IMG/VR virus record: IMGVR_UViG_3300033388_003578
Location: 1-29,456 of that record
Direction: 5' to 3' (one strand)
Source: a virus
DNA length: 29,456 nucleotides
Position numbers and translations under genes: made by a program. The notes beneath the pieces were generated by a model, which worked only from the letters and a program-made list of their open reading frames with translations, had not been told where the DNA came from and searched no databases. Positions 1 to 29,456 of this stretch are shown here, piece after piece. Position 1 is the stretch's first letter. Each line of letters starts with the position of its first letter.

Positions 1-114
1 AACAACGGCGGCCAACAGAACAACGGCGGCCAACAGAACAACGGCGGCCAACAGAACAACGGCGGCCAACAGAACAACGGCGGCCAACAGAACAACGGCG
101 GCCAACAGAACAAC
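1..114 (+). repeat. 18-bp tandem repeat, six copies plus a partial one
   Basis: The unit AACAACGGCGGCCAACAG occurs six times without a mismatch from 1 to 108, followed by AACAAC at 109-114. The unit is a multiple of three, so gain or loss of copies keeps the reading frame. The array probably continues to the left of the window. Perfect identity, including third codon positions, indicates recent expansion or slippage. Confidence 0.95.
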
Positions 115-168
115 CCTCAAGGCCACCAACAAGCCGACCAAAGCTTTTTAAATAACGGTCAAGGCTAA
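1..168 (+). CDS. C-terminal end of a protein with NNGGQQ repeats (partial)
   Basis: Frame 1 is open from the first base to TAA at 166-168. The visible 55 residues are six copies of N-N-G-G-Q-Q followed by a short tail that ends in S-F-L-N-N-G-Q-G. This is a low-complexity, uncharged, probably disordered C-terminus. The N-terminal functional domain lies outside the window, so no function can be assigned. It lies just upstream of replication genes on the same strand. Single-stranded DNA-binding proteins often carry Gly/Asn/Gln-rich tails, but the acidic D-D-x-I-P-F type tip expected of SSB is absent, so that identification is only a guess. Confidence 0.7.
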   Translation, partial: NNGGQQNNGGQQNNGGQQNNGGQQNNGGQQNNGGQQNNPQGHQQADQSFLNNGQG

Positions 169-209: not shown

Positions 210-533
210 ATGAAATACTTTGTCCCCGGAAAGGAAAGCGAGGAAGTCGTCGACCTGATCCTCTCCCTTGTTCGCGTAGAGAACGAGGACCAAAAGGCGG
301 CGCTATATGACCACCTTTGTCGCGGCAGTACGCCCACGACCGCGTCGCTCCTTAACGGGTGCAAATTGTCAAATTTTAACAGAACGCTCGCACGAGTCTC
401 GGACGCATTCGAAACGTTTGAGAAGCTATTCGAGATCAAGAACCGAAAGCCAACCGGCAAAAAGAAACCGCATGTCATGGACACACGTCTGCCCGGCATG
501 CACGCGCCAAACATAGGAGAGTTAAACCCATGA
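210..533 (+). CDS. PapB-like small helix-turn-helix regulator
   Basis: This 107-residue protein has a central part (about residues 25-70) resembling the PapB/FocB adhesin-regulator family: an amphipathic helix with D-Q-K-A-A-L-Y-D-H-L, then a turn, then N-F-N-R-T-L-A-R-V, which matches the family recognition helix pattern (N/Y-F-S-x-x-L-x-R). PapB-type proteins bind DNA as oligomers. Phages carry related small regulators. The C-terminal 30 residues are basic and Pro-rich. The stop overlaps the next ATG (ATGA), so it is part of an operon with 530-799. A role in controlling early phage genes is inference. The assignment is by eye from the motif; a profile search against PF03333 would decide. 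Confidence 0.6.
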   Translation: MKYFVPGKESEEVVDLILSLVRVENEDQKAALYDHLCRGSTPTTASLLNGCKLSNFNRTLARVSDAFETFEKLFEIKNRKPTGKKKPHVMDTRLPGMHAPNIGELNP

Positions 534-799
534 GCGACATTGAATCAAGTGACGGGGGTGTGGTCATTACGGAAAACATAGAAGTTCAAGTCGAACTCAC
601 CCCCAAACGCCTCGCCGAGGTCTTCTGGGCGATGGGCGAAAACCAGCAAGCGGAATTTTTTAACGCGATCCCCTGCTACGCCCAAGGGCCCGCAGCCACC
701 GAGATCCAACTGGCTTGGGTTATCCAAAGTGACACGCTCAATAAAGATGGGCAAAAATTCCTGCGTGACATCGCCGACGCAGTGAACGGGAGAACTTAA
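530..799 (+). CDS. Conserved-type small phage protein, unknown function
   Basis: An 89-residue acidic protein, translationally coupled to both neighbours: ATGA overlap with the upstream gene and TAATG overlap with the downstream gene. The middle (about residues 22-50) reads L-T-P-K-R-L-A-E-V-F-W-A-M, then E-F-F-N-A-I, a pattern seen in small early phage proteins that I cannot tie to a function. No signal peptide, membrane segment or cysteine motif is visible. The coupling makes it a real gene. Confidence 0.7.
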   Translation: MSDIESSDGGVVITENIEVQVELTPKRLAEVFWAMGENQQAEFFNAIPCYAQGPAATEIQLAWVIQSDTLNKDGQKFLRDIADAVNGRT

Positions 800-1044
800 T
801 GCACTTTTTTAATATTAAAGGCAAGCAGCACCTCGACCTCGCGGGGGACCTCATCCTCACCCACAACGAGGAGCTAGTCTCGACGCGCAACAAGAGCGCG
901 GGACCTGCCAAGGTGACCGGTGCAAAGTATATTTTATTATCGACGTTGACTCGCTGGCAAAAAGTCAAAGCGACGTTCCGCGTCATTGGCCACGTCTGGG
1001 ATCGCGGCGAAGCGAAAGCCGCAGCTACTCGGTTTAAGTCATGA
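799..1044 (+). CDS. Small basic phage protein, unknown function
   Basis: An 81-residue protein, basic in its C-terminal half and predicted from its sequence to be mostly beta-stranded at the start (H-F-F-N-I-K-G-K). Its ATG shares one base with the upstream TAA and its end overlaps the polymerase ATG by 4 bases, so it is co-translated with the replication genes. I do not recognise the family. Confidence 0.65.
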   Translation: MHFFNIKGKQHLDLAGDLILTHNEELVSTRNKSAGPAKVTGAKYILLSTLTRWQKVKATFRVIGHVWDRGEAKAAATRFKS

Positions 1045-5325: not shown

Positions 5326-5831
5326 GGGCGACCCCCCGTAAGCATGCCCGTTTTCTGAGCGGAGCTGCGAGTGGTGCCATTAAAGAACGCCAGCGACCCA
5401 AGCCATGCGGTCAACACCGACCCGAATAGTGTGTCGATGAGCCGCACGTTACCCGTTGGTATTGTGACAAACATCAACGCCGCCGCGAAGGAGATCACCG
5501 CAACAGTCAAGGAGATGCAAATAAACGCGGGCATCTTAGAATGTTGGTGCGTGGTTCGGGCGTGCTGCACGTCGCCGATCTCCGTGGCAGTTAACTCGTT
5601 GGAGAGCTCACGCATTCGGATCTTAAACGAGTTATTAGCCTGTTTAACCTTGAGCATGACCTCGGGGCTCGCCGCTTCGATTGCTTCGGCCATTTGCGTC
5701 TCGTCCGCCACCGGCTGGCCTGTAGCGTCTGCCACTGCCTTGAGTGCTAACTGCGGCAAAGTCGCACCGCCTGACAACACCGCCATCGCTAAGTCCGGCG
5801 CGTACTCTTTTAATTTATTTAACCAGTTCAT
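5322..5831 (-). CDS. Holin of the 3TM (GTA-holin-like) type
   Basis: A 169-residue protein. It has an amphipathic/hydrophobic N-terminal stretch (about 10-35), a charged middle, and two clear membrane segments near residues 100-122 and 131-152. This resembles the Holin 3TM family found next to endolysins in phages and gene transfer agents. The role would be to permeabilise the inner membrane and release endolysin. It overlaps the endolysin stop by 4 bases upstream and the next gene by 4 bases downstream. Family assignment is by length, topology and context. Confidence 0.75.
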   Translation of the reverse strand: MNWLNKLKEYAPDLAMAVLSGGATLPQLALKAVADATGQPVADETQMAEAIEAASPEVMLKVKQANNSFKIRMRELSNELTATEIGDVQHARTTHQHSKMPAFICISLTVAVISFAAALMFVTIPTGNVRLIDTLFGSVLTAWLGSLAFFNGTTRSSAQKTGMLTGGRP

Positions 5832-6358
5832 AGTCTCACCCTATTTTTAAGCCACCCATATACAAACCGTTCGTCTTTCTCGCGACGTTCGGCCAGTTCG
5901 ATATACTTAGCGCCCTGCATGCAGTTGAGCGCCTTGACGAGCGTCTCCTCGTCGCGTGTGTCGAGGTACGCGCGCAGAGCTCGAATTGTTGCGGGGCCTA
6001 TGCCGCCGTCGACCGCAAGATCCCCGTACAGAGTGCCGCCTTTGTTAAATACGTTAAGGCAACGTTGCAAAAGTTTGCTAGCACGACCGGTGCCCATGTT
6101 CACACCTGTGTCGACGACTTCCTCACAAACCGCCGGGCTGAGCGCGAGCAGGTCGTCCGCTTTCACTTTGTCCCAATATCGTGCCGAGTAAATGTCGAAC
6201 GCATTGACGCGAGTCAAGTCGCGCATGCTGCCGGAGTAGCCAAACTGGCGGGCAACCGCGACAGTTATGCCGAAGTTAGTCTCGCCGCCCGAGTCGCTAG
6301 GGTCGTTACTGTAACCGCCCTCTGCGGCCAGTATGTTGCCAATTATCTTAGTTTTCAT
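5828..6358 (-). CDS. Endolysin, glycoside hydrolase 108 muramidase
   Basis: A 176-residue lysozyme-type endolysin. The GH108 signature is clear: E13-G-G-Y-S-N-D-P-x-D-x-G-G-E-T-N-F-G-I-T, where E13 is the expected catalytic acid. The second half (about 95-176) contains the family peptidoglycan-binding region (D-G-G-I-G-P-A-T near 115-122). It has no signal peptide, so release depends on the adjacent holin. It starts 1 base after the tail spike stop. Length is normal for the family. Confidence 0.92.
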   Translation of the reverse strand: MKTKIIGNILAAEGGYSNDPSDSGGETNFGITVAVARQFGYSGSMRDLTRVNAFDIYSARYWDKVKADDLLALSPAVCEEVVDTGVNMGTGRASKLLQRCLNVFNKGGTLYGDLAVDGGIGPATIRALRAYLDTRDEETLVKALNCMQGAKYIELAERREKDERFVYGWLKNRVRL

Positions 6359-17181: not shown

Positions 17182-18690
17182 TTATGCGACTACCGTCGAC
17201 GTGCCGAAAAAGAAGCCGAAATTTAGATCGACCGAGATTATGTTCGCATTGCCCGCTAGCTGTACCGTCGTTGTGACGTTCAACCGCTTGGGGTTGCCAC
17301 TGTCAATCTCTGCGAATGTGTTAGCCTTTGCCGACTCTGGGTCGCTAATGATAGCGTTTAGTCCCAAACTGTCAAGCATCGAAGCCACTGCCGTCACTGC
17401 CGTCTTAGGCTTCTTGGCCGAGCGGTTAGATGTTGGCTGGTCGTTAGGTATCAACGGCGCGCCATCCCACTCCTCCGTAGCAAAAATTAAGTCCAAATTA
17501 AATAGAATGTTTTGCAGCTTAACAATGTCTACAACAAAACGGTAAGCGGGTATTGGGTCGCCCGTTGGGTGATAGTACGTCACAACGTCAGAGATGTTGA
17601 TCACGCCGTCTTTCACTTCGGTTGTTGAGCTGCCGCCTTTAACTGCAAGGTCTCGCTGGGTGTAGTCCCATTGCTCGCCGTCCGTGCCGGGCACTAAGCC
17701 ACTAGCATCTCGGCTGCCGTAGTCCTGCGGCGGGTTGTTGTTTGCGACTTTAACGATGCGCGCGAGTTGACGTGCTGCAACTACTAGCGGCAACTCGTCA
17801 CTACCTGGCGCAACTAGCTGGGAGTTGATTTTATCAGTCTTGCGAGTCTCGGGGATCACAATCGCAGTTTGCGGACTCACTTCCGTGGTGCCTGTGAATA
17901 CGACTAGCGGCTTGCGCGTCAATGCGCCCCACCGGCCCTCACCGAAAGTTGTATATTTTGTTAACGATGCGGTGTCTGCGACGTCCATACAATTGAGCAT
18001 CATGGTCTCCCACACATTGCCCACTTGCGAGAGTGCGTCGTCTACATCCGGGTTGACTAGTCCGCCCGTCGGTTGTGTGAATGCGAACGTCGTGCCCGCA
18101 GTGGTTGACCCCACAACGGTCAACACGATGTCGTTCGCGCTCGTGCCTTTCCATTTAGATGTTATGTCCACCGTGGTGGATGTGCCTGGCGTTGCGTCAA
18201 CCGCAATCACGGGCATCTCAAGCACTGCATTAACGGCCGCCGTCATGGCGGTGACGATGTCCGCGACGGTGTCGCCTGCGCTGATCACGAAGGCCTCCGA
18301 CGGGATCTCGTTAATGACTACGCGATAACTCGCCGCTTCGGTTTGAGAACCGCCCGGCGTGATGTCTCCCGAAGATACGGCGCCACTGCCGTCATCGACT
18401 AGCGGGTACACTGTCACCGGTATTGTGCCGACGCCGTCACCGTTAACCGGTAAAAGTTGTAGCACTGCCAAGTGTAAAGGGGACCCGAAGCCATACGTCT
18501 GCGCGACTTCTAGTGCGCTGGTTACCTGCGCTTTAACTGTTGGATAGGTGGAGGTGGTGCTACCTTGCCCCACTACCGCTACGCGCTGGGGTAAAAACAA
18601 GATACCGCCACCTCGCAGGTCTTTAAATGCTGTTTTTATTCCGACGACTCGAGCAACTGCTGAGGGGTCGACTGCGGTGCTTATAGGCAT
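17182..18690 (-). CDS. Contractile tail sheath protein (Mu gpL-like)
   Basis: A 502-residue protein. The N-terminal half carries F-L-P-Q-R-V-A-V-V-G-Q-G and A-L-E-V-A-Q-T-Y-G-F-G-S-P-L-H; the C-terminal half carries N-L-D-L-I-F-A-T-E-E-W-D-G-A and N-P-K-R-L-N-V-T-T-T-V-Q-L-A-G, the conserved sheath core that holds neighbouring subunits together. Length fits the Mu-like sheath family. Presence of a sheath makes this a myovirus-type particle. Confidence 0.93.
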   Translation of the reverse strand: MPISTAVDPSAVARVVGIKTAFKDLRGGGILFLPQRVAVVGQGSTTSTYPTVKAQVTSALEVAQTYGFGSPLHLAVLQLLPVNGDGVGTIPVTVYPLVDDGSGAVSSGDITPGGSQTEAASYRVVINEIPSEAFVISAGDTVADIVTAMTAAVNAVLEMPVIAVDATPGTSTTVDITSKWKGTSANDIVLTVVGSTTAGTTFAFTQPTGGLVNPDVDDALSQVGNVWETMMLNCMDVADTASLTKYTTFGEGRWGALTRKPLVVFTGTTEVSPQTAIVIPETRKTDKINSQLVAPGSDELPLVVAARQLARIVKVANNNPPQDYGSRDASGLVPGTDGEQWDYTQRDLAVKGGSSTTEVKDGVINISDVVTYYHPTGDPIPAYRFVVDIVKLQNILFNLDLIFATEEWDGAPLIPNDQPTSNRSAKKPKTAVTAVASMLDSLGLNAIISDPESAKANTFAEIDSGNPKRLNVTTTVQLAGNANIISVDLNFGFFFGTSTVVA

Positions 18691-20206: not shown

Positions 20207-21301
20207 TTAAAAGACTGCTGTTAAACAGCCGTAAGTGTCGATCGCGGTTGGGATCAACAACGGTCGAGAGCCTACGCCGCCCCACAACTGCTCGCCATCG
20301 TTAGACATCCACACGTTAGTGTGTAAGTCCATGCCGCCCGCACCGTTAGCCAAACGGTTTGGTAATTCGGGAAGCATCTGCGACGCTTGAGAGTTTAACA
20401 ACTTGCCAATGTTAGGGATCGCGCCGAACGTTGCATCCATTCTGCCCGTGCTTGAGCGAACAACAACTTTGTTCGGGTCAATAAACTGCACTTTGTTTCC
20501 GGTTTGAGGGTCTTTGTACTGACCGCCATACGTCCAAATGTCGTAGCGGTATGCCCCGATCTCCACAGTTCCCCGATACGTGCCGCCGTTGCCGCGTTTC
20601 TGCATCGGTGCGATCGTGCCTTGGTCAATGCGTCGAGTCTCATACACTTTGATGACTTCCGCATCCGCGATAAACTCTCGGTATGCGTCGATCCCCATCA
20701 AGAGCTCGTCTGGGTCTTCCAGACCATCATCGCGAATGACTTGCGCCAGCGCATTGACGTCATCAAGAGGTGTCGCGCCTACTTGTCCCCATGCGGTGCC
20801 CGCAGTTGGGAAGTGGGTCGCCTTAGGTTTGAAGTCCAGCGAGTAGATCGCTGCGCCGTTGATGTCAGTCAGAGTTATGACCCCAGTCTGCAAAACTTGC
20901 GAGGCTTGCTGCTCAAGTGCTCTGCGGATTTTGCGTTCGACTTTAACCATCCCACGGAACATTCGGACCACTAAGTTCGCACGGAAGTCCGGAGACTTGA
21001 AGGGGTCGTCCCCCGCCATGCGTTTAATTAGGTCCGTCGCGTTCAGGGCGATCGCTTCTTTAAAGATTGGAGCTTTAAACTCCTTGTTTGTATACAGGTC
21101 CTCTGAGTTCATTCGATACCCAGTGGTTAGATCCGTGACCGCGATCGCGATGTCTTCGTCGCTGCGAATAATGTCGATCTCCACGGTTTCCGAAGTATAG
21201 AAGTTCTCCGGAGGGCTTTGAAACAGTCCCGTGAGGAACATCGTTGTCGCCGCCATTTGTTCGTATACTCGTAGCATACGTTTAGTTACTGTACCCGACA
21301 T
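20207..21301 (-). CDS. Major capsid protein (lambda gpE-like, HK97 fold)
   Basis: A 364-residue protein of the Phage_cap_E family. Seen: F-F-bearing N-terminal start replaced here by M-F-L-T-G-L-F-Q-S-P, then I-A-I-A-V-T-D-L-T-T-G-Y, a long charged helix with R-K-I-R-R-A-L-E-Q-Q-A, then W-T-Y-G-G-Q-Y-K-D and the conserved V-Q-F-I-D-P-N-K-V-V-V near the C-terminus. Length fits the family. It follows protease/scaffold and decoration genes, as in lambda. Confidence 0.92.
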   Translation of the reverse strand: MSGTVTKRMLRVYEQMAATTMFLTGLFQSPPENFYTSETVEIDIIRSDEDIAIAVTDLTTGYRMNSEDLYTNKEFKAPIFKEAIALNATDLIKRMAGDDPFKSPDFRANLVVRMFRGMVKVERKIRRALEQQASQVLQTGVITLTDINGAAIYSLDFKPKATHFPTAGTAWGQVGATPLDDVNALAQVIRDDGLEDPDELLMGIDAYREFIADAEVIKVYETRRIDQGTIAPMQKRGNGGTYRGTVEIGAYRYDIWTYGGQYKDPQTGNKVQFIDPNKVVVRSSTGRMDATFGAIPNIGKLLNSQASQMLPELPNRLANGAGGMDLHTNVWMSNDGEQLWGGVGSRPLLIPTAIDTYGCLTAVF

Positions 21302-21311
21302 GGTGCTCCCC

Positions 21312-22016
21312 TTATTGGTTGTCTAGGATGTTTAGTTCTTGAACTTCAATCGAAACTAACGAGTAGTCACGAAGCTGGTCAAGGATTGCGTCGTCGATGT
21401 TGGAATTATCCCCATCTGCGTCGATGATTAAGCGAGGCGCTCGAACCGAACCCGAGATCATGTCCCGGATTGCTACGTCGCCCGCACCCGTTGCCGCCAC
21501 ATCGTATGTTAGCACGGCTTTAGGCACTTGTGCCCCACCAGCCCCCGCGATTGCGAAAGGAACTAGGTTCCCGTCAGCCGCTACGGTTAACGTGAAGAAG
21601 TCGCCGACAACGAAGTCCGTTGCCGCATCGGTCACGGTAAATTGTAAACCTGCAGTTTCGAAAACTGTCGCAGCTCCCGCGCCCACAGTCATGATCAGGT
21701 TGGTGGCAACGAGTGCCCCGTTCGGATCTTTTAACTCTAGCACGCCACCGTTCGCCACTGCTGTGATAACCGTTAGGACGTAAGCCCCAACGATTGGAAC
21801 AACTTGTCCCGCCGCAACTGTCGCCAGCGTCACCGTGCCGTCGCCGGTGCCTGTGACTGCCGAGGCTGTTACCGCATCCGCCACCGCTTTACGCGCGAGG
21901 ATCGTGCCTTCCAGCACTGTGCCCGCACCGCCAAAGGTCAAAAGGTCATCTCTGAACTTGCCCTCTTCGAGAATAACGCTCCCGAGGTCGTTGTTTGTTA
22001 TTGTAATGTTTGGCAT
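21312..22016 (-). CDS. Head decoration protein (gpD-like) with an inserted beta domain
   Basis: A 234-residue protein. The ends (1-50 and about 148-234) resemble a gpD-type decoration protein: F-R-D-D-L-L-T-F near 21-28, then Y-D-V-A-A-T-G-A-G-D-V and P-R-L-I-I-D-A. Between them (about 52-147) sits an extra Gly/Ala/Thr/Val-rich domain containing G-T-G-D-G-T-V-T-L and G-D-F-F-T-L-T-V, absent from the 110-residue lambda gpD. The protein would sit on capsid three-fold sites and stabilise the filled head. TAATG coupling with the protease gene. Confidence 0.78.
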   Translation of the reverse strand: MPNITITNNDLGSVILEEGKFRDDLLTFGGAGTVLEGTILARKAVADAVTASAVTGTGDGTVTLATVAAGQVVPIVGAYVLTVITAVANGGVLELKDPNGALVATNLIMTVGAGAATVFETAGLQFTVTDAATDFVVGDFFTLTVAADGNLVPFAIAGAGGAQVPKAVLTYDVAATGAGDVAIRDMISGSVRAPRLIIDADGDNSNIDDAILDQLRDYSLVSIEVQELNILDNQ

Positions 22017-22375
22017 TACGCTTGCGCTCCCATTCCTGTGGCCGCTTCAACAAGTGCCGCAACATCTGCTCCAGCTTCGACATTGTCTTGGCCTTGCGCA
22101 TTGTTGGCGGCCGCAGCTGCTTCGTCGTCGCCCTGACGGTTGCCGATATCTTGATGGTTTCGGCCAGCACACAAATATTTAGCCGTTAGCGTCGCGGTCA
22201 TTTCCGAACCGTCCGCAACCGCCTCAAGTGCCGTTTTCATGTCATGGCAGGACGTGCCCATCTGTAAATGAGCCCCCACGCGATCACGTTCCGCAGTCGC
22301 GCCAATTGTTTTGCCTTCGTCGACCGCCGCCTGGTATAGTGCGGGGTGCTTGGCCTTTAATTCTTGGATATCCAT
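22016..22375 (-). CDS. Nested scaffold protein (Nu3-like), internal start
   Basis: Met271 of the protease frame (ATG at 22375) is preceded by AGAGGT at 22388-22383, a good Shine-Dalgarno sequence 7 bases away. Translation from it gives 119 residues starting M-D-I-Q-E-L-K-A-K-H-P, which has the helical, acidic character of Nu3-type scaffolds. In lambda, Nu3 is made in the same way from inside gene C. A separately made scaffold would give excess over protease. Confidence 0.7.
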   Translation of the reverse strand: MDIQELKAKHPALYQAAVDEGKTIGATAERDRVGAHLQMGTSCHDMKTALEAVADGSEMTATLTAKYLCAGRNHQDIGNRQGDDEAAAAANNAQGQDNVEAGADVAALVEAATGMGAQA

Positions 22376-23185
22376 GTTTTGGACCTCTGAATTCCCGCTC
22401 GAGGCGGTAGTGGATTTAGTACTCTTAACTGATTCTAACCGCGTAGTGGCTATGCTGTCAATCATACCTCTTTTTAAAGCGTCCTCGGCCAAGACTGCTG
22501 CGCCTCGACCAAAGTCTGCGTTAACTTTTTTAACTGTTGTTCCTAGGTCTTCCGCAATGGACTCCACAAACAGCGCGTGCCACGTGTCGAGCCCGGCGAC
22601 TATGACCGCCTTTCCCGCTTCTGTGGTCACATCTGGCCGCTTGTTCGGGGCCTCAGTGCTTGATAGGGTGACGACATCCTCTCGAAGGCGTATGTCCGCC
22701 GCAGTGCCTATGCTTCCGGTGACACTCGCGCGACTTGACGCCACCCTCTCGTCTGCCGCTGCCGCAAGGGCAAAGGCCGCCGAAGCTGCCATCGTGCCGA
22801 TAATTGCCTTAACTGGCTTTTTAGCTGCCCTTATCGCGTCGATTGCTTCGAACATACCGAAGACCGAGCCTCCTCCGCTGTCAAAGCGCAGGATTGTTTC
22901 TTCAACTTCTGGGTTCGCGTCCGCTTCGGCAACAGCTGAGATAATCTCTGGGTACGTAGTGTTCCCACCACCAAAGAATGCCGCCATCCAGTCTGGTGCG
23001 TTTGTGAGCACACCTTTGATGTGGATCTCCGCGTTACCTCCAGCAATGGAGAGCACCCGAGAGGTGTCCGCCGCGAGAACCATGGACGTGTATGCCTCTA
23101 GTTGCTCCGCGGAGGGGAGGACCCCCGACGCGCGAGCCTGTGCTAGGGCTTTGCGAACTTCTGCTGTTAAAAACCAAATTTCCAT
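22016..23185 (-). CDS. S49 head maturation protease fused to scaffold (lambda C-like)
   Basis: A 389-residue protein. Residues about 50-250 form a SppA/ClpP-type S49 protease: F-D-S-G-G-G-S at 101-107, nucleophile S135 in M-A-A-S-A-A-F, and K182 (or K192) as the likely general base. Residues 271-389 are a Gln/Ala/Glu-rich scaffold tail. As in lambda C/Nu3, the scaffold also has its own start inside the gene (22375). The protease trims scaffold and portal during head assembly. Confidence 0.9.
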   Translation of the reverse strand: MEIWFLTAEVRKALAQARASGVLPSAEQLEAYTSMVLAADTSRVLSIAGGNAEIHIKGVLTNAPDWMAAFFGGGNTTYPEIISAVAEADANPEVEETILRFDSGGGSVFGMFEAIDAIRAAKKPVKAIIGTMAASAAFALAAAADERVASSRASVTGSIGTAADIRLREDVVTLSSTEAPNKRPDVTTEAGKAVIVAGLDTWHALFVESIAEDLGTTVKKVNADFGRGAAVLAEDALKRGMIDSIATTRLESVKSTKSTTASSGNSEVQNMDIQELKAKHPALYQAAVDEGKTIGATAERDRVGAHLQMGTSCHDMKTALEAVADGSEMTATLTAKYLCAGRNHQDIGNRQGDDEAAAAANNAQGQDNVEAGADVAALVEAATGMGAQA

Positions 23186-23187
23186 GA

Positions 23188-23922
23188 TCAGCCCTCCACG
23201 AGCAACAGTGAATACCTAACGCCAACCGACGTAGACGCCGAGTCCGCCTCCGCGGTGATCTTTATATCTGTGAGCGGGGGTATCATGTCCGGCAGCACGT
23301 TGTCAAAACTAGGGGCTGTATTCCCCGACCGCTGCATTCCCAGCGCGAAAGGAGTGACAAACACACCCCCGCGACGTCTTACTTTAACTCTTGCCAAGAC
23401 CCCTACGTCTGACCCCCCGCTCTTTGTCATCGTCGGGACAAAAGACAGTACTAGGCCTTTTTTGCCAGCGGGTATCGTGAAGACTGAGTTGTTGTCTGTC
23501 TGAGATGCTTGTAGCACCGCGTACGTGACCGCCGCCCCGGGGCCAGTGACCGAGATGGAGAGGGGGACTAGCTCTTCCCCCCCACTCGTTACAATGCCAT
23601 TTATTCTCGACCACAAGCCAGATAGGGGGATCGTGACTGCGCCATTGATTGCCACCTCCTCGCTTCTGTACTCCCCCTCCGCTCCGAGCCCCGTGACCGC
23701 GAGCGTGCTGTCATTCCCCGCGTCGCTGCTGACCACTTGCATCTCCTCCCCCCCGTCTGGGGGGAACACGTATGCGTCCGCGAAGGGGACCACATCCACC
23801 TCCGCCAAGGAGGGGAGATTTACCCGCCCTCCGAACACATTGCGTGTCGAAAAGTTCGTGACCCCGCCTAGGGCTATCGCGACACCCAAGTGTGAGTCTT
23901 TAATAAAAGGGCCTCTACTCAT
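23188..23922 (-). CDS. Putative virion structural protein, beta-rich, unknown role
   Basis: A 244-residue protein between portal and protease. It overlaps the end of the portal gene by 8 bases and ends 2 bases before the protease start. The sequence is Gly/Val/Thr-rich with alternating beta-strand pattern (V-S-S-D-A-G-N-D-S-T-L-A-V-T-G-L-G, R-V-K-V-R-R-R-G-G-V-F-V). Lambda has no gene here. A head fibre, decoration or minor capsid subunit is plausible, but nothing in the sequence decides. Confidence 0.7.
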   Translation of the reverse strand: MSRGPFIKDSHLGVAIALGGVTNFSTRNVFGGRVNLPSLAEVDVVPFADAYVFPPDGGEEMQVVSSDAGNDSTLAVTGLGAEGEYRSEEVAINGAVTIPLSGLWSRINGIVTSGGEELVPLSISVTGPGAAVTYAVLQASQTDNNSVFTIPAGKKGLVLSFVPTMTKSGGSDVGVLARVKVRRRGGVFVTPFALGMQRSGNTAPSFDNVLPDMIPPLTDIKITAEADSASTSVGVRYSLLLVEG

Positions 23923-25570
23923 TTTCCATTACCTCCTCGACAGCCGCGACAATGCTGTCGCCGACTTCTTCTAATGCGTTAATTGCTTTGCTTGCGGTTT
24001 GCTCCCCGAATTCTTTTTGTAACTCGAGCAAGGGCCTTGCTGCTTCCGCCGCTAGTTGGTTTTCGCGGGTTAACCGCTTAATGTTTTTACTGAATTTCGT
24101 CCCGGTAAGCTGTCGCGCTTCTCTCGCTCGGGTCGTTAATCCCTCTTCAATCAAGCCTTTGCTACCCTTGATCGCCTTGGCCATATCGGTCGACGGTTTG
24201 ATCGAGCCGTACCAGTCCGCCGCGGTCCACGCGCCAAACTTGTCATATTGCTGTGGGTCGCGCCACGCCTCAAGGAGTCCGGGTGCTTCAATTCGTTGGG
24301 TCAGGACTTCACTGAGAAGCCATTCCACTTGGATGGGTGCGCAGAACGTGTCGCCCCATTCGCCCCAAAATTTGTTTAAATATATTTTAAATTCGTTGAT
24401 CGCTGCTTGGCTCGCGCTGTAATTGTTAGAAAATGCGAGCTGTAAGATCTCGGGGGGCATCTCATTTGCCCACGCTATCGCGGACATGAGTGCCGCTTCA
24501 AAGTCTCCGAACTTCTCGTCCGTGCCTTGGTTGCCAAACGCCACGGGCTCCTCGCCGGTTTGCAACTCTTGCATGACAATGCCGGGGATCTGGTTCGCTA
24601 TGTCAAACTTGCGCGTTTTCCCGTCACTATCCGTAGCTTGCGCCTTGTCAACCCGCTTCGCGCCCCCCGTCATCGGGAGGGTCCCCATCTTGTCCTCGGT
24701 TTTCTTGACGAACATGGCGAGAATAGAGTTCAAGACGGCTTTACGCTGTATCGAATCGCGATACCTGTCAACTTCTTTTAAAGATTGTAATATGATCGAG
24801 AGCAACGGCTGGCCGCGAACGTCGTCGAGCCTTTTGTCCGTGCCAAAGACGAGCCACGCAATGCGGCGCCCCGACTTCTCTCCGAACGCTGGAATTCTTT
24901 TCGATCCGCCCTTCTCTTGGTCAGTCCAATACGCAACAACACGACCGCGCGAGTCTTTCTCCACGCCATGGGTGACTGTGTGGCCTTTGCGCAGGGAGCT
25001 CTCACTCGCAAGCGGCGTTCTGACCGCGCCACCCCTAACGAGCTGGACTTGTGGCAGTTTTGTGACCTGTGATTGTCTTAAGACGACTAACACATCCCCC
25101 TCGACTAGGGCCTCTCTCCGTGCAGTCTGTTGGAGTGCTCCCAAGGTGCTCTCACCTTTCCAGTCGCAGACCCGTGGGTTTTTGCCCCAAATGGCGAAGC
25201 GGTTCTCGACGGTCTCCGTCCAGTCCGCGAGGCTGTCCTCCTCGAGTCCGAGGATCTCCTCGTCTGGGCACAGCTCGGGGGTCAGCCCGGTGTTTATTTC
25301 GTTTGTGATGAGTCGGCGGATGAGCCCGCGAGCGTAAAGGTTGTCGTTAAATAGTTGTGATGAGCGGGCGCGTAGCGTCCAATAGTCCGCTTGTTGTAGC
25401 TGAGTTATTCCAAACCCGCCGGGGAACTTGTCGCCGTCAAGAAGGGTATTGGCCGCAGGCGCTTGGATGTAGCCTTGCGCAAAAGGGTCGAGGTCGTCGA
25501 CGCTGACCACTTCGTGGCCCGCGGAGCCCTCGGAGAACCCTTTTAAAAAATTTGATACCGCACTGCGCAT
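23915..25570 (-). CDS. Portal protein (lambda gpB-like)
   Basis: A 551-residue portal of the lambda family: Y-A-R-G-L-I-R-R-L-I-T-N-E-I-N-T-G-L near 80-97, F-G-T-D-K-R near 246-251, L-L-S-I-I-L-Q-S-L-K-E-V-D-R-Y-R-D-S near 260-280, then P-P-E-I-L-Q-L-A-F-S-N-N-Y-S-A-S-Q-A-A near 372-390. The frame is open to 25633, but Met at 25570 lies right after the gpW-like stop and gives the expected N-terminus; the extra 21 residues would overlap gpW coding. A dodecameric ring at one vertex, it is the channel for DNA and the docking site of terminase. Confidence 0.93.
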   Translation of the reverse strand: MRSAVSNFLKGFSEGSAGHEVVSVDDLDPFAQGYIQAPAANTLLDGDKFPGGFGITQLQQADYWTLRARSSQLFNDNLYARGLIRRLITNEINTGLTPELCPDEEILGLEEDSLADWTETVENRFAIWGKNPRVCDWKGESTLGALQQTARREALVEGDVLVVLRQSQVTKLPQVQLVRGGAVRTPLASESSLRKGHTVTHGVEKDSRGRVVAYWTDQEKGGSKRIPAFGEKSGRRIAWLVFGTDKRLDDVRGQPLLSIILQSLKEVDRYRDSIQRKAVLNSILAMFVKKTEDKMGTLPMTGGAKRVDKAQATDSDGKTRKFDIANQIPGIVMQELQTGEEPVAFGNQGTDEKFGDFEAALMSAIAWANEMPPEILQLAFSNNYSASQAAINEFKIYLNKFWGEWGDTFCAPIQVEWLLSEVLTQRIEAPGLLEAWRDPQQYDKFGAWTAADWYGSIKPSTDMAKAIKGSKGLIEEGLTTRAREARQLTGTKFSKNIKRLTRENQLAAEAARPLLELQKEFGEQTASKAINALEEVGDSIVAAVEEVMENE

Positions 25571-25572
25571 AC

Positions 25573-25824
25573 TCACCAGCAAGGCCTCCCGATCACACCC
25601 GCACCATTGAGTCTCGCGTCGAGCGTGGCGCATCGGTTATACAGGGAATTGATCACACGGTTGATGCTTGAGACGTCGTTCTTTGTCACGGTCTGCCGCG
25701 TCTGCCCTGTGTCGAACGTGTACGACAAGATCACACCGCTCGCGAGGTCAAGGAGTGCATCCTCGAGCGCGACTATCTGCAACTTTGTGGCATCAATGCG
25801 GCCTTGAATAAAAGTTGAGTCCAT
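25573..25824 (-). CDS. Head-tail joining protein (lambda gpW-like)
   Basis: An 83-residue protein from ATG 25824. Pattern I-V-A-L-E-D-A-L-L-D-L-A-S-G, then S-Y-T-F-D-T-G-Q-T-R-Q-T-V-T, then I-N-S-L-Y-N-R matches the gpW family layout of two helices around a beta hairpin. The frame is open to 25968, but the upstream part covers the AT-rich promoter and encodes an unlike hydrophobic stretch, so the shorter start is preferred. It lies immediately before portal, as in lambda, and is the first gene of the late operon. Confidence 0.78.
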   Translation of the reverse strand: MDSTFIQGRIDATKLQIVALEDALLDLASGVILSYTFDTGQTRQTVTKNDVSSINRVINSLYNRCATLDARLNGAGVIGRPCW

Positions 25825-25873
25825 TACATGACGCGCCTCGTGGTGTGTAAAAATAAATAATACAATTAAAAGG

Positions 25874-25902
25874 AGTATACCCCCGAGACGATAAAAAAAC
25901 AA
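25874..25902 (-). promoter_or_regulatory. Sigma70-like promoter of the late operon
   Basis: On the minus strand TTGTTT (25902-25897), a 17-base spacer and TATACT (25879-25874). The -10 box matches consensus at five of six positions, the -35 at three, with ideal spacing. Transcription would start near 25867, about 43 bases before the gpW-like ATG. It lies in the only AT-rich stretch of the phage block, between divergent genes. A weak -35 would fit control by a phage activator (inference). Confidence 0.55.
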
Positions 25903-25987
25903 AGATACTTGTCGGTTGTTGTTGACGTGGTGGTAAATAACGCCCACACTAACCCTAAGAACTAACAAACCAAGTCGGTGCTAATTG

Positions 25988-26195
25988 ATGATAACCCTTA
26001 ACCAAATACAGAAAGGGGGGGAACAGGTTCCCCGTAACGCTAGACGAAACTGGTGCGGCGTATGAGTGTATCGGGACGAACATCGAGTCCTTTGGGGTGG
26101 CCAAGGGCGTTGTCCCCGCCGCGGCGTACGTGGTTGCCGTGGGGTGGGTGGACCTACACATCTTTGTGATGTCGTACTCACGGGCGCGATCATGA
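25988..26195 (+). pseudogene. Small gene broken by one extra G in a run of seven
   Basis: ATG 25988 opens M-I-T-L-N-Q-I-Q-K-G-G and then meets seven G (26014-26020). With six G the frame would continue N-R-F-P-V-T-L-D-E-T-G-A-A-Y and onward to TGA at 26193-26195, giving a 68-residue protein whose stop overlaps the next ATG (ATGA). As given, frame zero stops early at 26066 (M-I-T-L-N to C-G-V). The downstream frame has no ATG of its own. Either a real mutation, a phase-variable tract or a sequencing error. Function unknown; the second half has a hydrophobic V-P-A-A-A-Y-V-V-A-V stretch. Confidence 0.6.
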
Positions 26196-26383
26196 GCGGG
26201 GCGAGAGAGGTCGCGGGGAACGCGGTCTTTGAAATAGAAGAACTCATCGCTGAAATGTTGGACGGAGACTATATAGATAATGAGATCTCACTCGGCCGTT
26301 TACTGTCCGGGAATGAAGAGTTTCAAGTCCAATTAAAAATCACTCGTGACCCTATGGCGTTTTTACATCATGATGAGGAGTAG
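26192..26383 (+). CDS. Small acidic protein, unknown function
   Basis: A 63-residue protein, M-S-G-A-R-E-V-A-G to H-H-D-E-E, starting at the ATGA overlap with the frameshifted gene. The frame is open to 26066, but that part is Arg/Gly-rich and is a shadow of the other frame. Acidic and probably helical (F-E-I-E-E-L-I-A-E-M-L). It is the last GC-rich gene before the composition drops. It could be a phage early gene or the content of the first cassette. Confidence 0.6.
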   Translation: MSGAREVAGNAVFEIEELIAEMLDGDYIDNEISLGRLLSGNEEFQVQLKITRDPMAFLHHDEE

Positions 26384-26423
26384 GCAAAATTTTATATCAA
26401 TTAACAACCATCACCACAGGGAA

Positions 26424-26540
26424 CCATTACGAGCTGAGGCTAACGGAGAAAAACACAATGGCAACACGCGCAAATGAAAAAGAAGAAAACCTAACAAAAA
26501 CAGCAGACTGTAGCGGTCACGTTGAGCCAGTTGTTATGTG
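26424..26540 (+). other. Degenerate attC-like site (attC0)
   Basis: CATTACGAGCTGAGGCTAAC at 26424-26443 is nearly the reverse complement of the right end, CGTTGAGCCAGTTGTTATG at 26519-26537. The right half also resembles the right half of attC1 (AGACTG, TAGC, GTCAC, AGCC, GTTG/TTA). The cut would be G26533/T26534. The left core is ATTAC, not the expected ATAAC, so it may be inactive. The downstream bases GTTATGTG (26533-26540) are the exact reverse complement of CACATAAC after the next gene. Confidence 0.5.
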
Positions 26541-26751
26541 TGCTTGCGCGCTACTATACAATTTGAGTGATGCTGACGGGCTAAAGCAAAAAGTGAGAGC
26601 TTGCCTTGTTGCTGTTGAAGAATGTGATGACGAGTTTTCACTAAAAGCAAAAGCTGAAAGATATTTCAGAGAACACGAAACAATATCAAAAGAAATAGAA
26701 GGGCATAGCCTTGTAGCTTACAATTTAGCAATTGAAGCGCATGCCACATAA
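26458..26751 (+). CDS. Cassette 1 protein, unknown function
   Basis: A 97-residue protein preceded by GGAG 10 bases before ATG 26458. The first 26 residues lie over the degenerate attC0, so the cassette's own gene may start at ATG 26536 (M-C-A-C-A-L-L-Y-N), directly in the junction GTTATG, giving 71 residues. The longer frame then would be an in-frame fusion across a recombination junction. The protein is acidic and helical: L-K-Q-K-V-R-A-C-L-V-A-V, then A-E-R-Y-F-R-E-H. I do not recognise it. Confidence 0.65.
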   Translation: MATRANEKEENLTKTADCSGHVEPVVMCACALLYNLSDADGLKQKVRACLVAVEECDDEFSLKAKAERYFREHETISKEIEGHSLVAYNLAIEAHAT

Positions 26752-26836
26752 CCTGAAGCTAATGTGCTGCTAACACCAGCACTTAAACTAATAAACAACA
26801 GACTGTTAGCAGTCACTATTTAGCCTGTTGTTAGCT
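26746..26836 (+). other. Integron attC site 1
   Basis: Left core ACATAAC overlaps the stop of cassette 1. Left arm CTGAAGCTAATG pairs with right arm CTATTTAGCCTG; right core is GTTG/TTAGC with the cut G26830/T26831. Two inner hairpins are visible: GTGCTG...CAGCAC (26765-26783) and GACTG-TTAG-CAGTC (26803-26816). The imperfect, bulged palindrome of about 90 bases is the form recognised by integron integrases as folded single strand. Confidence 0.75.
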
Positions 26837-26846
26837 GGCTTCTTGT

Positions 26847-26894
26847 TTATTTCACGATATACGTTATGTTTGCTTTATTTATCGCGAGATACGT
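26847..26894 (+). repeat. Imperfect direct repeat in the cassette 2 leader
   Basis: TTATTTCACGATATACGT (26847-26864) and TTATTTATCGCGAGATACGT (26875-26894) are two similar copies, 28 bases apart start to start, 100 bases before the first gene of cassette 2. Such paired sites often bind a regulator; the small HTH protein at 27680 is a possible ligand (inference). The 157-base leader is otherwise AT-rich, with no clear promoter box. Confidence 0.4.
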
Positions 26895-26993
26895 GTAATA
26901 CTGTATTTATCAACTGAACCAACCGAGATAAATATCATAACTTATAACTTAGCTGAATTTTTAACCACTAAATCAATTAAGCAAGTAACTAAC

Positions 26994-27245
26994 ATGTTAA
27001 AAGTCAGGCATGATAGAGAATTACTAGCGTCTGAGTACATAAGCAAGTACGACAACTACCCTTACGATGATATGCCGAAGTATATAACAGGCGTAAAAAA
27101 TGCCTATAACACTATTGATGATTGTCGTGAGTGGATGAATGATGCAGTTCATTATTTTAGCGCTGAATTATGGGATAAAATGATTGTTGACGCTGGGTTT
27201 TGTATGGAAGGTAATGACTATATTGATTTAATGGAATTAAGGTAA
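26994..27245 (+). CDS. Cassette 2 first protein, unknown function
   Basis: An 83-residue acidic protein rich in Tyr and Asp: D-N-Y-P-Y-D-D-M-P-K-Y, then W-M-N-D-A-V-H-Y-F. Codon use is AT-rich, unlike the phage block. Its TAA shares a base with the next ATG, so it is the first of a coupled group of four. No recognised domain. The ATG is preceded by only a weak ribosome site. Confidence 0.65.
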   Translation: MLKVRHDRELLASEYISKYDNYPYDDMPKYITGVKNAYNTIDDCREWMNDAVHYFSAELWDKMIVDAGFCMEGNDYIDLMELR

Positions 27246-27463
27246 TGAAAAAGTTTAAATTTGATTCGGGGCAGGTTCGTGCTGACATTACAAAAGAAAA
27301 GCATACTAAAAAAAATAGATATACGATTACTTTTCTTTTGCGTAATTCTTATGGGTGGGGGATCTCATTGGATATTGATAAAGATAAGTATGATAGTTTT
27401 GATTTAAAGCAGGCTAGATTGTTTGCTGAAAAAGCAGAACCAATGATTAATTTTTTTAGTTGA
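27245..27463 (+). CDS. Cassette 2 second protein, unknown function
   Basis: A 72-residue basic protein coupled by TAATG to the upstream gene. Beta-rich start (K-K-F-K-F-D-S-G-Q-V-R, R-Y-T-I-T-F-L-L-R) and helical end (L-K-Q-A-R-L-F-A-E-K-A-E). It looks like a small compact domain of the kind common in prophage accessory regions. No function can be assigned. Confidence 0.65.
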   Translation: MKKFKFDSGQVRADITKEKHTKKNRYTITFLLRNSYGWGISLDIDKDKYDSFDLKQARLFAEKAEPMINFFS

Positions 27464-27476
27464 GAGGTAGAGCAAA

Positions 27477-27677
27477 ATGACTAAGCAGGTAGATCTATTT
27501 GAGGGTAAAATCGAATTCGATGTAAATATTGTTTATTTTTTTAAACCTGATTTTAAAATAAAAGTTACGGCTATAGATGCGTACCACGCAAAATGTCAAG
27601 CTCTTGGTAAGAGCGGTTATAGCAATCTAGAAATGTATGACAATCATAAAACCACTATCAATAAAATCTTAAGGTAA
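27477..27677 (+). CDS. Cassette 2 third protein, unknown function
   Basis: A 66-residue protein with GAGG 9 bases before the ATG. It begins with beta strands (K-I-E-F-D-V-N-I-V-Y-F-F, F-K-I-K-V-T-A-I-D-A) followed by Y-H-A-K-C-Q-A-L-G-K-S-G-Y, similar to short phage proteins with an I-D-A-x-x-x-x-x-A helix. Starts 13 bases after the second gene. Confidence 0.62.
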   Translation: MTKQVDLFEGKIEFDVNIVYFFKPDFKIKVTAIDAYHAKCQALGKSGYSNLEMYDNHKTTINKILR

Positions 27678-27679
27678 AT

Positions 27680-27853
27680 ATGACGGCATCACAAAAAGCA
27701 AAAGCAGCAGGATTTAAAAGCTTAACTCAAGTTATCGAGTTAAGCGAAACATCACGATCAACATTAGTTGATATGAAAGAAAGGTATCCTGTTAGATTTG
27801 ATGTGATTTTGTTGGGATGTGCTGAAAAGTTGAGATTACAACTAGACAGCTAA
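27680..27853 (+). CDS. Cassette 2 fourth protein, small helix-turn-helix protein
   Basis: A 57-residue protein: M-T-A-S-Q-K-A-K-A-A-G-F-K-S-L, then V-I-E-L-S-E-T-S-R-S-T-L-V-D-M, then F-D-V-I-L-L-G-C. This is the pattern of very small phage HTH proteins (A-K-x-x-G-F-K-S-L ... S-x-x-T-L-x-x-W/M ... P-x-x-F-x-x-V-L-L-G), where the second block is the recognition helix. AAGG precedes the ATG. The stop (27851-27853) lies in the left core of attC2. It may regulate its own cassette. Confidence 0.65.
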   Translation: MTASQKAKAAGFKSLTQVIELSETSRSTLVDMKERYPVRFDVILLGCAEKLRLQLDS

Positions 27854-27946
27854 CCATTGAATTTAAGCGGCTAAATAAAGCCTGCTAAAATGACGAGGAA
27901 CGAGACACAGCAAGCTTTATGTGTCCGTTTTAAATAGTTGTTAGCG
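27847..27946 (+). other. Integron attC site 2
   Basis: Left core CAGCTAAC (27847-27854) is the exact reverse complement of the start of the same cassette (GTTAGCTG at 26830-26837). Left arm ATTTAAGCGG pairs with right arm CCGTTTTAAAT. Inner arms ATAAAGC (27875-27881) and GCTTTAT (27914-27920) pair perfectly. Right core GTTG/TTAGCG, cut G27940/T27941. Cassette 2 is thus 26831-27940. Confidence 0.85.
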
Positions 27947-27981
27947 AGATTTAACAACACTAAACCCAGAGGAAGCAACTA

Positions 27982-28314
27982 ATGAATTTAACGATGAAAA
28001 ACGGAAAGTGTGTAATTGACGGGAAATTATTTTCAGGCAGCAACATTCGAATTAATGGAAACAAAGTTACCGTTGATGGTGTTGTGCAAGATGGCGAACT
28101 TGTTGGTGATATCACTGTAACTGTGCATGGTGACGTTGAAGCACTAGAAAATATCAACGGCAATGTTAAGGCCAATAATGTTGGTAGCGTAAGAACCATC
28201 AACGGAAAGGTAACTTGTGACGATGTTGCTGGTGATGTTAAGACCACCAACGGCGATGTTACAGCTAGAAAAATATTAGGCAAGGTTACGACAGTACATG
28301 GCGATATTAATTAA
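27982..28314 (+). CDS. Cassette 3 protein, repeated beta-solenoid-like
   Basis: A 110-residue protein with GAGGAAG before the ATG. From about residue 38 it consists of short repeats: G-D-I-T-V-T-V-H-G-D-V, E-N-I-N-G-N-V-K, R-T-I-N-G-K-V, A-G-D-V-K-T-T-N-G-D-V, V-T-T-V-H-G-D-I. Repeats of x-G-D-V-x-T-x-N/S-G-D-V form a beta-solenoid or bactofilin-like ladder. Similar short proteins occur as prophage and cassette genes; the role is not known to me. Single-gene cassette. Confidence 0.7.
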   Translation: MNLTMKNGKCVIDGKLFSGSNIRINGNKVTVDGVVQDGELVGDITVTVHGDVEALENINGNVKANNVGSVRTINGKVTCDDVAGDVKTTNGDVTARKILGKVTTVHGDIN

Positions 28315-28316
28315 AT

Positions 28317-28396
28317 CTCGCTAACCTTTGCAAAAACCTGTTGGCTACCGAGCGTAGCGAACAGTAGACAATCAGCGTTATTTGGCGTTGTTATGT
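28317..28396 (+). other. Integron attC site 3
   Basis: The first bases of cassette 3, GTTAGCGAGATTTAA (27940-27954), are the reverse complement of TTAAATCTCGCTAAC at 28311-28325, a 15-base match. Inside, CTGTT-G-GCTAC and GTAGC-G-AACAG (28338-28364) form a hairpin with one mismatch. Right core GCGTTG/TTATG, cut G28390/T28391. Confidence 0.85.
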
Positions 28397-28453
28397 TACC
28401 ACCACTAAAATTGATTTAGATCAAGTTATTTTCGCTTTATGTTGATTTAGGTA

Positions 28454-28482
28454 TTTACTTTAATATGATTAGTGTCTATACT
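28454..28482 (+). promoter_or_regulatory. Sigma70-like promoter inside cassette 4
   Basis: TTTACT (28454-28459), a 17-base spacer and TATACT (28477-28482). Four of six and five of six bases match consensus, with ideal spacing. Transcription would start near 28489, 41 bases before the first gene. The 139-base leader of cassette 4 holds nothing else that I can identify. Most cassettes lack a promoter and rely on Pc. Confidence 0.6.
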
Positions 28483-28529
28483 ATATTCAAAGGTTAGGAA
28501 TACACCGAACCACTGAAAGAGTAAAGATT

Positions 28530-28844
28530 ATGTTTATTTGTGAAATCTGCGGAAACACTCACTACAACGAAAAGTCAGAATTATGTAATGTTTGCGTTAA
28601 AAACTCTAAAGCAGCAAAAAAAGAAGTTACAGAAAAGCATGCAGACAGCAAATTAAAATTAGCCGATTTGTTATCTAAAGCAAAACGTAAACACGGTAAC
28701 GATATTGACGTTACAGAATCTTTAGCAGTAGTTAAGATGGGGAATGAATTATTTTCTACTAAAGTCACTAAAGCGAAATTGCTAGCTCTTATCACAGCAA
28801 ACAGCAACGCAAGCAGAAGCGTAAACAATCAACTAAACAAATAA
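28530..28844 (+). CDS. Cassette 4 first protein, N-terminal zinc-ribbon
   Basis: A 104-residue protein with a four-cysteine knuckle (C4, C7, C19, C22; I-C-G-N between the first pair), followed by a basic, helical remainder (K-K-E-V-T-E-K, L-L-S-K-A-K-R-K-H-G). A DNA- or RNA-binding accessory protein is likely but not proven. It starts after the internal promoter and ends 10 bases before the next gene. Confidence 0.65.
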   Translation: MFICEICGNTHYNEKSELCNVCVKNSKAAKKEVTEKHADSKLKLADLLSKAKRKHGNDIDVTESLAVVKMGNELFSTKVTKAKLLALITANSNASRSVNNQLNK

Positions 28845-28854
28845 GGAATTTATT

Positions 28855-29097
28855 ATGAGTACACTTATTAGAAGTATAGGGAAGGTTAGGTTTAACGGTT
28901 TAGGTGCTGATTTGTACGAAAACAAAAACGGTACAGCATCAATAAAGTTTGATAAGAATTGCACACAACTCCCGAAAAGAACAAATTTATGTTTTGATAA
29001 TTTAGGAAAGGCAGAAACTTTTATTGAGTCAAAACAAGGTAGTAATAGCTTAAATACATTAGTGAATATTCTCGATGCTGGCAAGGTTAGTTATTAA
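28855..29097 (+). CDS. Cassette 4 second protein, unknown function
   Basis: An 80-residue basic protein with AAGGA 8 bases before the ATG. Beta-rich first half (I-G-K-V-R-F-N-G-L-G-A-D-L-Y), then helix (L-N-T-L-V-N-I-L-D-A). Its TAA shares a base with the next ATG. Not recognised. Confidence 0.62.
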   Translation: MSTLIRSIGKVRFNGLGADLYENKNGTASIKFDKNCTQLPKRTNLCFDNLGKAETFIESKQGSNSLNTLVNILDAGKVSY

Positions 29098-29195
29098 TGC
29101 CCGGCGGTAAGCGCGCAGGGGCTGGACGCCCCACTATCGCGCCAGAACTTAAAAAGAAAGCGGTAAATGGGTTAAAAGCGCCGAACTTGGCTTAG
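29097..29195 (+). pseudogene. 32-residue stub resembling the start of a phage terminase small subunit
   Basis: M-P-G-G-K-R-A-G-A-G-R-P-T-I-A-P, then K-K-K-A-V-N-G, stop. G-G-K-R-x-G-A-G-R-P is the typical opening of many phage small terminases and related DNA-binding proteins. Those are far longer, so this is a truncated gene; the stop lies exactly at attC4. GC content is higher than its neighbours. TAATG coupling suggests it was once part of a phage operon (inference). Confidence 0.5.
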
Positions 29196-29277
29196 TAACA
29201 TAACCCCTCACTGTTAAGCGGAAATTACGTTTAGCTTGGAACAAGCTGTAATTTTCCGTTTGCACGAGTTGTTATAT
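29195..29277 (+). other. Integron attC site 4
   Basis: Left core GTAACATAAC (29195-29204) is the exact reverse complement of the first bases of cassette 4 (GTTATGTTAC, 28390-28399). Arms GGAAATTAC (29220-29228) and GTAATTTTCC (29249-29258) pair; the centre AGCTTG-GAA-CAAGCT (29233-29247) is a perfect hairpin. Right core GAGTTG/TTATA, cut G29271/T29272. Cassette 4 is 28391-29271. Confidence 0.87.
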
Positions 29278-29312
29278 TTTGCTGACAACGACAACATGTA
29301 AGCGAGAGATAA

Positions 29313-29456
29313 ATGAGTATTAATAAGTGGATTCACGTTGAGGATGCACGACCCACGGATTCAAAAGGGCTTTACTGGGTGGTAAGTAAAGATACAGGTA
29401 GAAAGCCAATAATCGCTAGATTTAACGATTACAGGTCAATGGGTGGCGCCACTAAT
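29313..29456 (+). CDS. Cassette 5 protein, DUF551-like (partial)
   Basis: The frame runs off the window after 48 codons. It begins M-S-I-N-K-W-I-H-V-E-D-A-R-P-T-D-S-K-G, then Y-W-V-V, then I-I-A-R-F-N-D-Y. W-I-x-V-x-D-x-x-P at the start and a later x-A-x-F is the DUF551 pattern, a small domain found mostly in phage genes, with no known function. GAGAG precedes the ATG. The cassette starts at 29272. Confidence 0.6.
   Translation, partial: MSINKWIHVEDARPTDSKGLYWVVSKDTGRKPIIARFNDYRSMGGATN

Follow-up and report, generated by a model that had tools for sequence, protein, structure and literature searches.

A putative integrase-free attC cassette cluster in an accessory-gene site of a contractile-tailed phage

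A cluster of attC cassettes without an integrase is carried, with a probability that we put at about 0.6, in an accessory-gene site of a contractile-tailed phage. The window analysed was the whole IMG/VR record IMGVR_UViG_3300033388_003578 (29,456 bases, both ends open, 0 Ns), in which positions 1–26383 are phage DNA and an AT-rich cassette array extends from about 26384 to the contig end at 29456. A first-pass annotation had described a phage block meeting an attC array and had offered three readings: a prophage inserted into the array, a phage that captured cassettes or a chimeric assembly. The meeting itself was confirmed, the last phage gene ending at 26383 and the cassettes beginning at about 26384. 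Capture by the phage is the best supported of the three readings, since the array occupies a known insertion site behind same-strand phage genes, counts a phage gene among its cargo and has mixed attCs; a chimera is a less likely but possible alternative.

Judged from its sequence, the phage is a member of the SppYZU01/PD0307/PY6/Scuro family of contractile-tailed phages (42–46 kb). Comparison of DNA and protein identified Shewanella phage SppYZU01, Oceanospirillum phage PD0307, Pseudoalteromonas phage PY6 and Acinetobacter phage Scuro as relatives, together with phages 97.13 and 367.14 of Vibrio mediterranei; all of these are isolated phages of 42–45 kb. The portal, adaptor and polymerase are homologous to theirs (portal identity 49–69%) and the module order, compared by annotation, is the same. 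The polymerase is encoded on the plus strand and the remaining modules on the minus strand, in the order lysis, tail fibre, baseplate, tape measure, tube, sheath, connector, capsid, decoration, protease, portal and adaptor.

The polymerase is of family A with an N-terminal SLOG-type domain (1041–3830, plus strand; PHROG 17, E = 2.4e-77; Pfam YAcAr and DNA_pol_A). Its SLOG-type start (Pfam YAcAr, window 1041–1230) is an unusual fusion; proteins of PY6 and Vibrio phage 367.14 align with it over the full length. On the minus strand were found an endolysin (5828–6358; PHROG 315, E = 1.1e-46), a contractile tail sheath (17182–18690; PHROG 165, E = 2.2e-91), a major head protein (20207–21301; PHROG 29, E = 2.1e-49), a head maturation protease (22016–23185; PHROG 53, E = 1.5e-56), a portal protein (23915–25633; PHROG 21, E = 6e-67) and a head–tail adaptor of about 85 amino acids (approximately 25573–25830; PHROG 118, E = 2.7e-4), the homologue of which lies between terL and the portal gene in the relatives. 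The adaptor open frame extends to 25968 from a TTG. The identities of the portal, the adaptor and the remaining head–tail module are certain, and the head and tail genes appear intact. At the left contig end an 18-bp tandem repeat (AACAACGGCGGCCAACAG) occupies window positions 1–120, and the assembly breaks inside it.

The head is lambda-like and the tail Mu/P2-like; the phage is not of the transposing Mu type. No Mu transposase family or Mu end was detected among the scanned window ORFs, so of the earlier label 'lambda/Mu-type' only the contractile tail stands on the Mu side. Neither an integron integrase (intI), which had been proposed as worth seeking elsewhere on the contig, nor a phage integrase was present among the scanned ORFs of the window, which ends within the array.

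Next to the adaptor lies an AT-rich intergenic stretch (25840–25980, GC 0.38) at which the synteny of the family first departs, terL being expected just beyond. It is followed by a small plus-strand frame (25988–26195) which, from the frame translations, is split at a run of seven G residues (26015–26021); the split may stem from an error in the homopolymer or from a genuine frameshift. This frame overlaps by ATGA with a 63-residue phage gene (26192–26383, plus strand; PHROG 12601, E = 9.9e-17), the last recognisable phage gene before the array. The protein is 59–60% identical to the products of the gene located just upstream of the P2-type replication gene A in Vibrio cyclitrophicus prophages, and a search of IMG/VR with it gave no matches. 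The gene is shared with P2/186-like Vibrio prophages, a case of mosaicism that links a phage lineage of lytic type with a temperate one.

The junction is intergenic and directly follows phage genes on the same strand. The fall in GC reported there by the first-pass annotation was reproduced (0.55 to 0.37), in the form of a step spanning about 150 bp: the best change point is at 26227, positions up to about 26330 fit nearly equally well and the region 26192–26383 is intermediate (0.46). The adjoining stretch (26384–26457) is without a recognisable R'' or G|TTRRRY crossover, and no crossover fitting cassette 1 was found at the boundary. The earlier remark that a G/TT junction is missing therefore holds; it speaks against a simple integrase-made insertion, and illegitimate recombination is favoured over such an event. 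Since cassette 1 has no R''-matching start at the boundary, either it is truncated or its attC has been misread. A promoter scan in front of the array gave nothing above chance. As to whether the same junction occurs in other genomes, which had been put forward as a check, an exact search of IMG/VR with a 50-mer across the junction, from which near-identical records may have been hidden, yielded no copy in other contigs.

A loose pattern derived from attC2 and attC4 was used to find attC-like sites in bacterial genomes, the set was extended by similarity and a covariance model was built from 23 outside sequences, with the window excluded. The search pattern having been taken from the window, the model cannot count as fully blind to that sequence; the dense arrays that it detects in Colwellia-type contigs, such as the 13 sites spread over 8 kb of L043, are independent of the window. 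All sites in the window lie on the plus strand. In sequence terms attC2 (27850–27946, Alteromonadales/Vibrio type; 62.9 bits, E = 2.7e-12, fold z = -2.75) and attC4 (29200–29277; 30.3 bits, E = 1e-4, fold z = -3.0) are unambiguous, and at 1.3 kb apart they give the two or more close attC sites expected of a CALIN (a cluster of attC sites lacking integrases). The two other sites are weak and uncertain. attC1 (26748–26836) scored 18.7 bits (E = 0.05), with a fold z of -2.3 for 26740–26842; attC3 (28318–28396) was missed by the model and is defined by cassette boundaries only, its R'' (GCTAACC) and R' (GTTATGT) boxes being framed by the cassette 3 and cassette 4 matches. A search of IMG/VR with the attC3 core gave no matches. 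A further candidate, attC0 in 26424–26539, had boxes that fitted by eye and was dropped, because its fold z against shuffled sequences was +0.3 and its model score (11.2 bits, E = 2.8) was at chance level.

As further evidence, independent of the model, inverted copies of their own R'' boxes stand at the starts of cassette 3 (15 nt), cassette 4 (10 nt) and cassette 2 (8 nt). In 300 Markov-simulated sequences the 15-nt match was never reached (0/300; longest run 14, mean 8.4); as simulated runs go up to 14, only the match of cassette 3 is striking by itself.

The array holds at least four cassettes with attC sites. The product of the first cassette ORF (26458–26751, plus strand, 97 amino acids) had no match in Pfam, PHROG, IMG/VR, the genome contigs, phages or 199 Colwellia-family genomes. 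Cassette 2 (26831–27940, plus strand) contains four co-directional small ORFs (at 26994, 27245, 27477 and 27680). Cassette 3 (27941–28390, plus strand) carries a bactofilin-like phage protein (27982–28314; PHROG 3163, E = 8e-25), a small beta-repeat protein with homologues in 50 phage records (up to 62% identity) and in some plasmids. It had no match in the 199 Colwellia-family genomes, and no attCs of the modelled type flank its homologues in two other phages and one plasmid. Cassette 4 (28391–29271, plus strand) has at least two ORFs (28530–28844 and 28855–29097), so that cassettes 2 and 4 each hold several co-directional small ORFs; a cassette 4 protein searched in IMG/VR gave no matches. 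A short ORF near 29100 that resembled the start of phage packaging/replication proteins was rejected when it found no match. The start of cassette 5 (29272–29456, plus strand), with an open frame from 29313, is cut by the contig end. Profiles of defence genes gave one weak match only on the cassettes (E = 0.003, to the PADLOC model named E2).

Matches to the array DNA, nearly always through the attC2 core, occurred in 24 of 120 Colwellia-family and four of 198 Vibrio-family genomes, the core being mostly 74–87% identical in the former. Among the hosts known for the phage relatives are Shewanella, Pseudoalteromonas, Vibrio and Oceanospirillum, and the attC2 matches therefore agree, as to donor and host range, with the marine gammaproteobacterial hosts of the relatives. 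The four attCs of the window are 58–62% identical in pairwise comparison, a value lowered by the uncertain attC1 and attC3, whereas attCs within four Colwellia-family chromosomal arrays average 71–88%. The near-uniform attCs by which a fragment of a sedentary chromosomal integron is recognised are thus absent, and a simple excerpt from a single array of that chromosomal kind becomes less probable; mixed-attC arrays may exist in other lineages.

Phage genes near attC sites were also seen in three other contigs. In L084 (14,252 bp) Zot-bearing filamentous phage genes have attC sites on both sides (297–3785 and 11802), and in L086 (14,336 bp) a Zot-bearing filamentous phage has them on one side; the contig names suggest isolate genomes, and filamentous phages thus appear to lie within or alongside arrays of cassettes. 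In L085, part of a 44,774-bp contig, two attC sites have a tyrosine integrase and a homologue of lambda P as neighbours, so that a temperate phage borders on a cassette array.

The interval between terL and the adaptor was measured in 81 loci of the relatives, some contigs being counted twice. terL lies upstream of the adaptor and portal in 81/81 measurable loci. The interval spans 18–138 bp in 69 loci and 183–1312 bp in a further ten; the largest value, 5,817 bp, comes from a 46,450-bp contig that was seen twice (L024 and L140). No relative whose contig extends far enough lacks terL; the one equivocal case is the short contig L126, in which 0.9 kb of sequence precede the portal match. The window extends 3.6 kb past the adaptor and contains, instead of terL, the array. 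The wider intervals hold genes that we read as endonuclease-like (L002, L091 and L124), small regulators or other small genes, and these larger gaps with cargo mark the interval as an accepted insertion site of the family. One precedent for opposite-strand cargo was found, in L024 (2953–8748), where 5.8 kb of AT-rich opposite-strand small genes separate terL from the adaptor, with no attC of the modelled type in that interval. None was found in the other phage relatives either; the model recognises a single attC type and may miss others. Many contigs of the family (L087–L152) stop about 0.9–1 kb upstream of terL, and this recurrence suggests a fixed physical genome end there.

According to our preferred reading, a lytic-type phage would carry an opposite-strand accessory operon between terminase and adaptor, consisting of two small phage genes and at least four cassettes. 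A cassette block from a host integron with an Alteromonadales or Vibrio-like attC type would have entered the phage genome, probably in the course of an infection, either through illegitimate recombination or by way of a secondary integrase site that was later blurred. Being co-directional behind the small phage genes, the cassettes may be read together with them, presumably from a phage promoter, and the terminase gene would follow the array beyond the contig end. This is favoured by the terL–adaptor hot spot with its opposite-strand precedent, by the plus-strand phage gene at 26192–26383 that runs into the array in the same direction, by the precise framing of a PHROG 3163 phage gene as cassette 3, by attCs only 58–62% alike, by the multi-ORF co-directional cassettes 2 and 4, by array matches that fit the marine gammaproteobacterial hosts of the relatives and by the published attC clusters in virulent phages (PMC9892861). 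It is weakened by the far side of the array, from cassettes to terL, lying off the contig, so that phage genes are seen on one side only; by the exact IMG/VR search, which supplied no second junction contig; by the phage relatives being free of attCs of the modelled type; and by the boundary, which shows neither an integrase-type crossover nor a promoter above chance. That the terminase–adaptor gap of the family serves more generally as a cargo slot for integron cassettes, with phage accessory genes such as the PHROG 3163 gene of cassette 3 passing in cassette form between the integrons of hosts and virulent phages by means of the host integrase, is a speculative and rather improbable extension.

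The main competitor, which we regard as unlikely but worth serious weight, is a chimeric contig, in which pieces of a phage genome and of a bacterial cassette array (chromosomal or mobile), both present in one sample, were wrongly joined during library preparation or assembly. The record is a single metagenomic one with both ends open, the left in the tandem repeat and the right in the array; the junction sits where terL is universal in the relatives and combines a GC step with no recombination signature; the attC2 type is abundant in chromosomal arrays; and the junction was not met a second time in the exact IMG/VR search. Against this, the window has no Ns, the junction lies between genes, behind same-strand phage genes and in the insertion hot spot of the family, a phage gene is part of the cargo and the attCs, being mixed, differ from those of the chromosomal arrays examined. 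The sequence is compatible with a chimera without demanding one.

A prophage or stranded phage fragment integrated in a host chromosomal integron, with the junction as phage end against host array, has parallels in the Zot-bearing phages of L084 and L086 next to or between attC sites, in the integrase and lambda P genes beside the attCs of L085 and in a Vibrio anguillarum prophage that excises at attC sites (PMC9892861). It is nevertheless very unlikely here, and the first-pass suggestion of a prophage inserted into the array found little support: the scanned ORFs include no integrase, no close integrated copy of the phage was found in 349 + 346 bacterial genomes (695 in all, best portal relative 33% identical), the relatives are isolated 42–45 kb phages and the break adjoins the adaptor instead of falling about 0.9–1 kb upstream of terL, where contigs of relatives repeatedly stop. 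Hardly more credible, if not slightly less so, is a defective phage in which the array has replaced terL and its neighbours, leaving a genome that is helper-dependent or dead. terL is indeed missing where all relatives have it, but were the array a plain insertion, terL would lie beyond the contig end, and the head and tail genes look intact.

If the phage-borne cluster is real, a further lytic-phage lineage joins the few known to carry integron cassettes, a concrete insertion site is given and a phage accessory gene is shown packaged as a cassette, which would support the idea that phages carry cassettes between bacteria that do not conjugate. Should the contig prove chimeric, it would serve as a warning to surveys in which the cassettes on virome contigs are counted.

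CALINs have been reported in the virulent phages TJE1, PH101 and P12002L, and five of six tested attCs from their clusters recombined with attI1 (Qi et al., 2023; PMC9892861). As in those phages, the cassettes described here form a co-directional array, found beside phage genes and with no integrase among the scanned ORFs, and, as in some of them, several ORFs lie between attCs and marine hosts are involved. Those phages are isolates, whereas the present case is a single metagenomic contig; it also belongs to a different phage family and has a defined site, between terL and the adaptor. With the sedentary chromosomal integrons of the Colwellia family (L043, L048, L051 and L068) the array shares the attC type of attC2 and attC4; it differs from them in its less uniform attCs (58–62% against 71–88% within an array), its position beside phage genes and its multi-ORF cassettes. 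The attG-type route by which cassettes enter genomes (Loot et al., 2024) would, as far as the citing accounts convey it (PMC12901181 and PMC11023631), likewise put cassettes outside an integron, but no crossover was recognised at the first cassette boundary of the window. The gene order polymerase, lysis, contractile tail, head, portal and adaptor is that of SppYZU01, PD0307, PY6, Scuro, 97.13 and 367.14; in the window, unlike in those phages, terL is not beside the adaptor and the array is in its place. Integrase-less attC clusters in virulent phages have been known since 2023, and what would be new here is another phage lineage and a defined insertion site.
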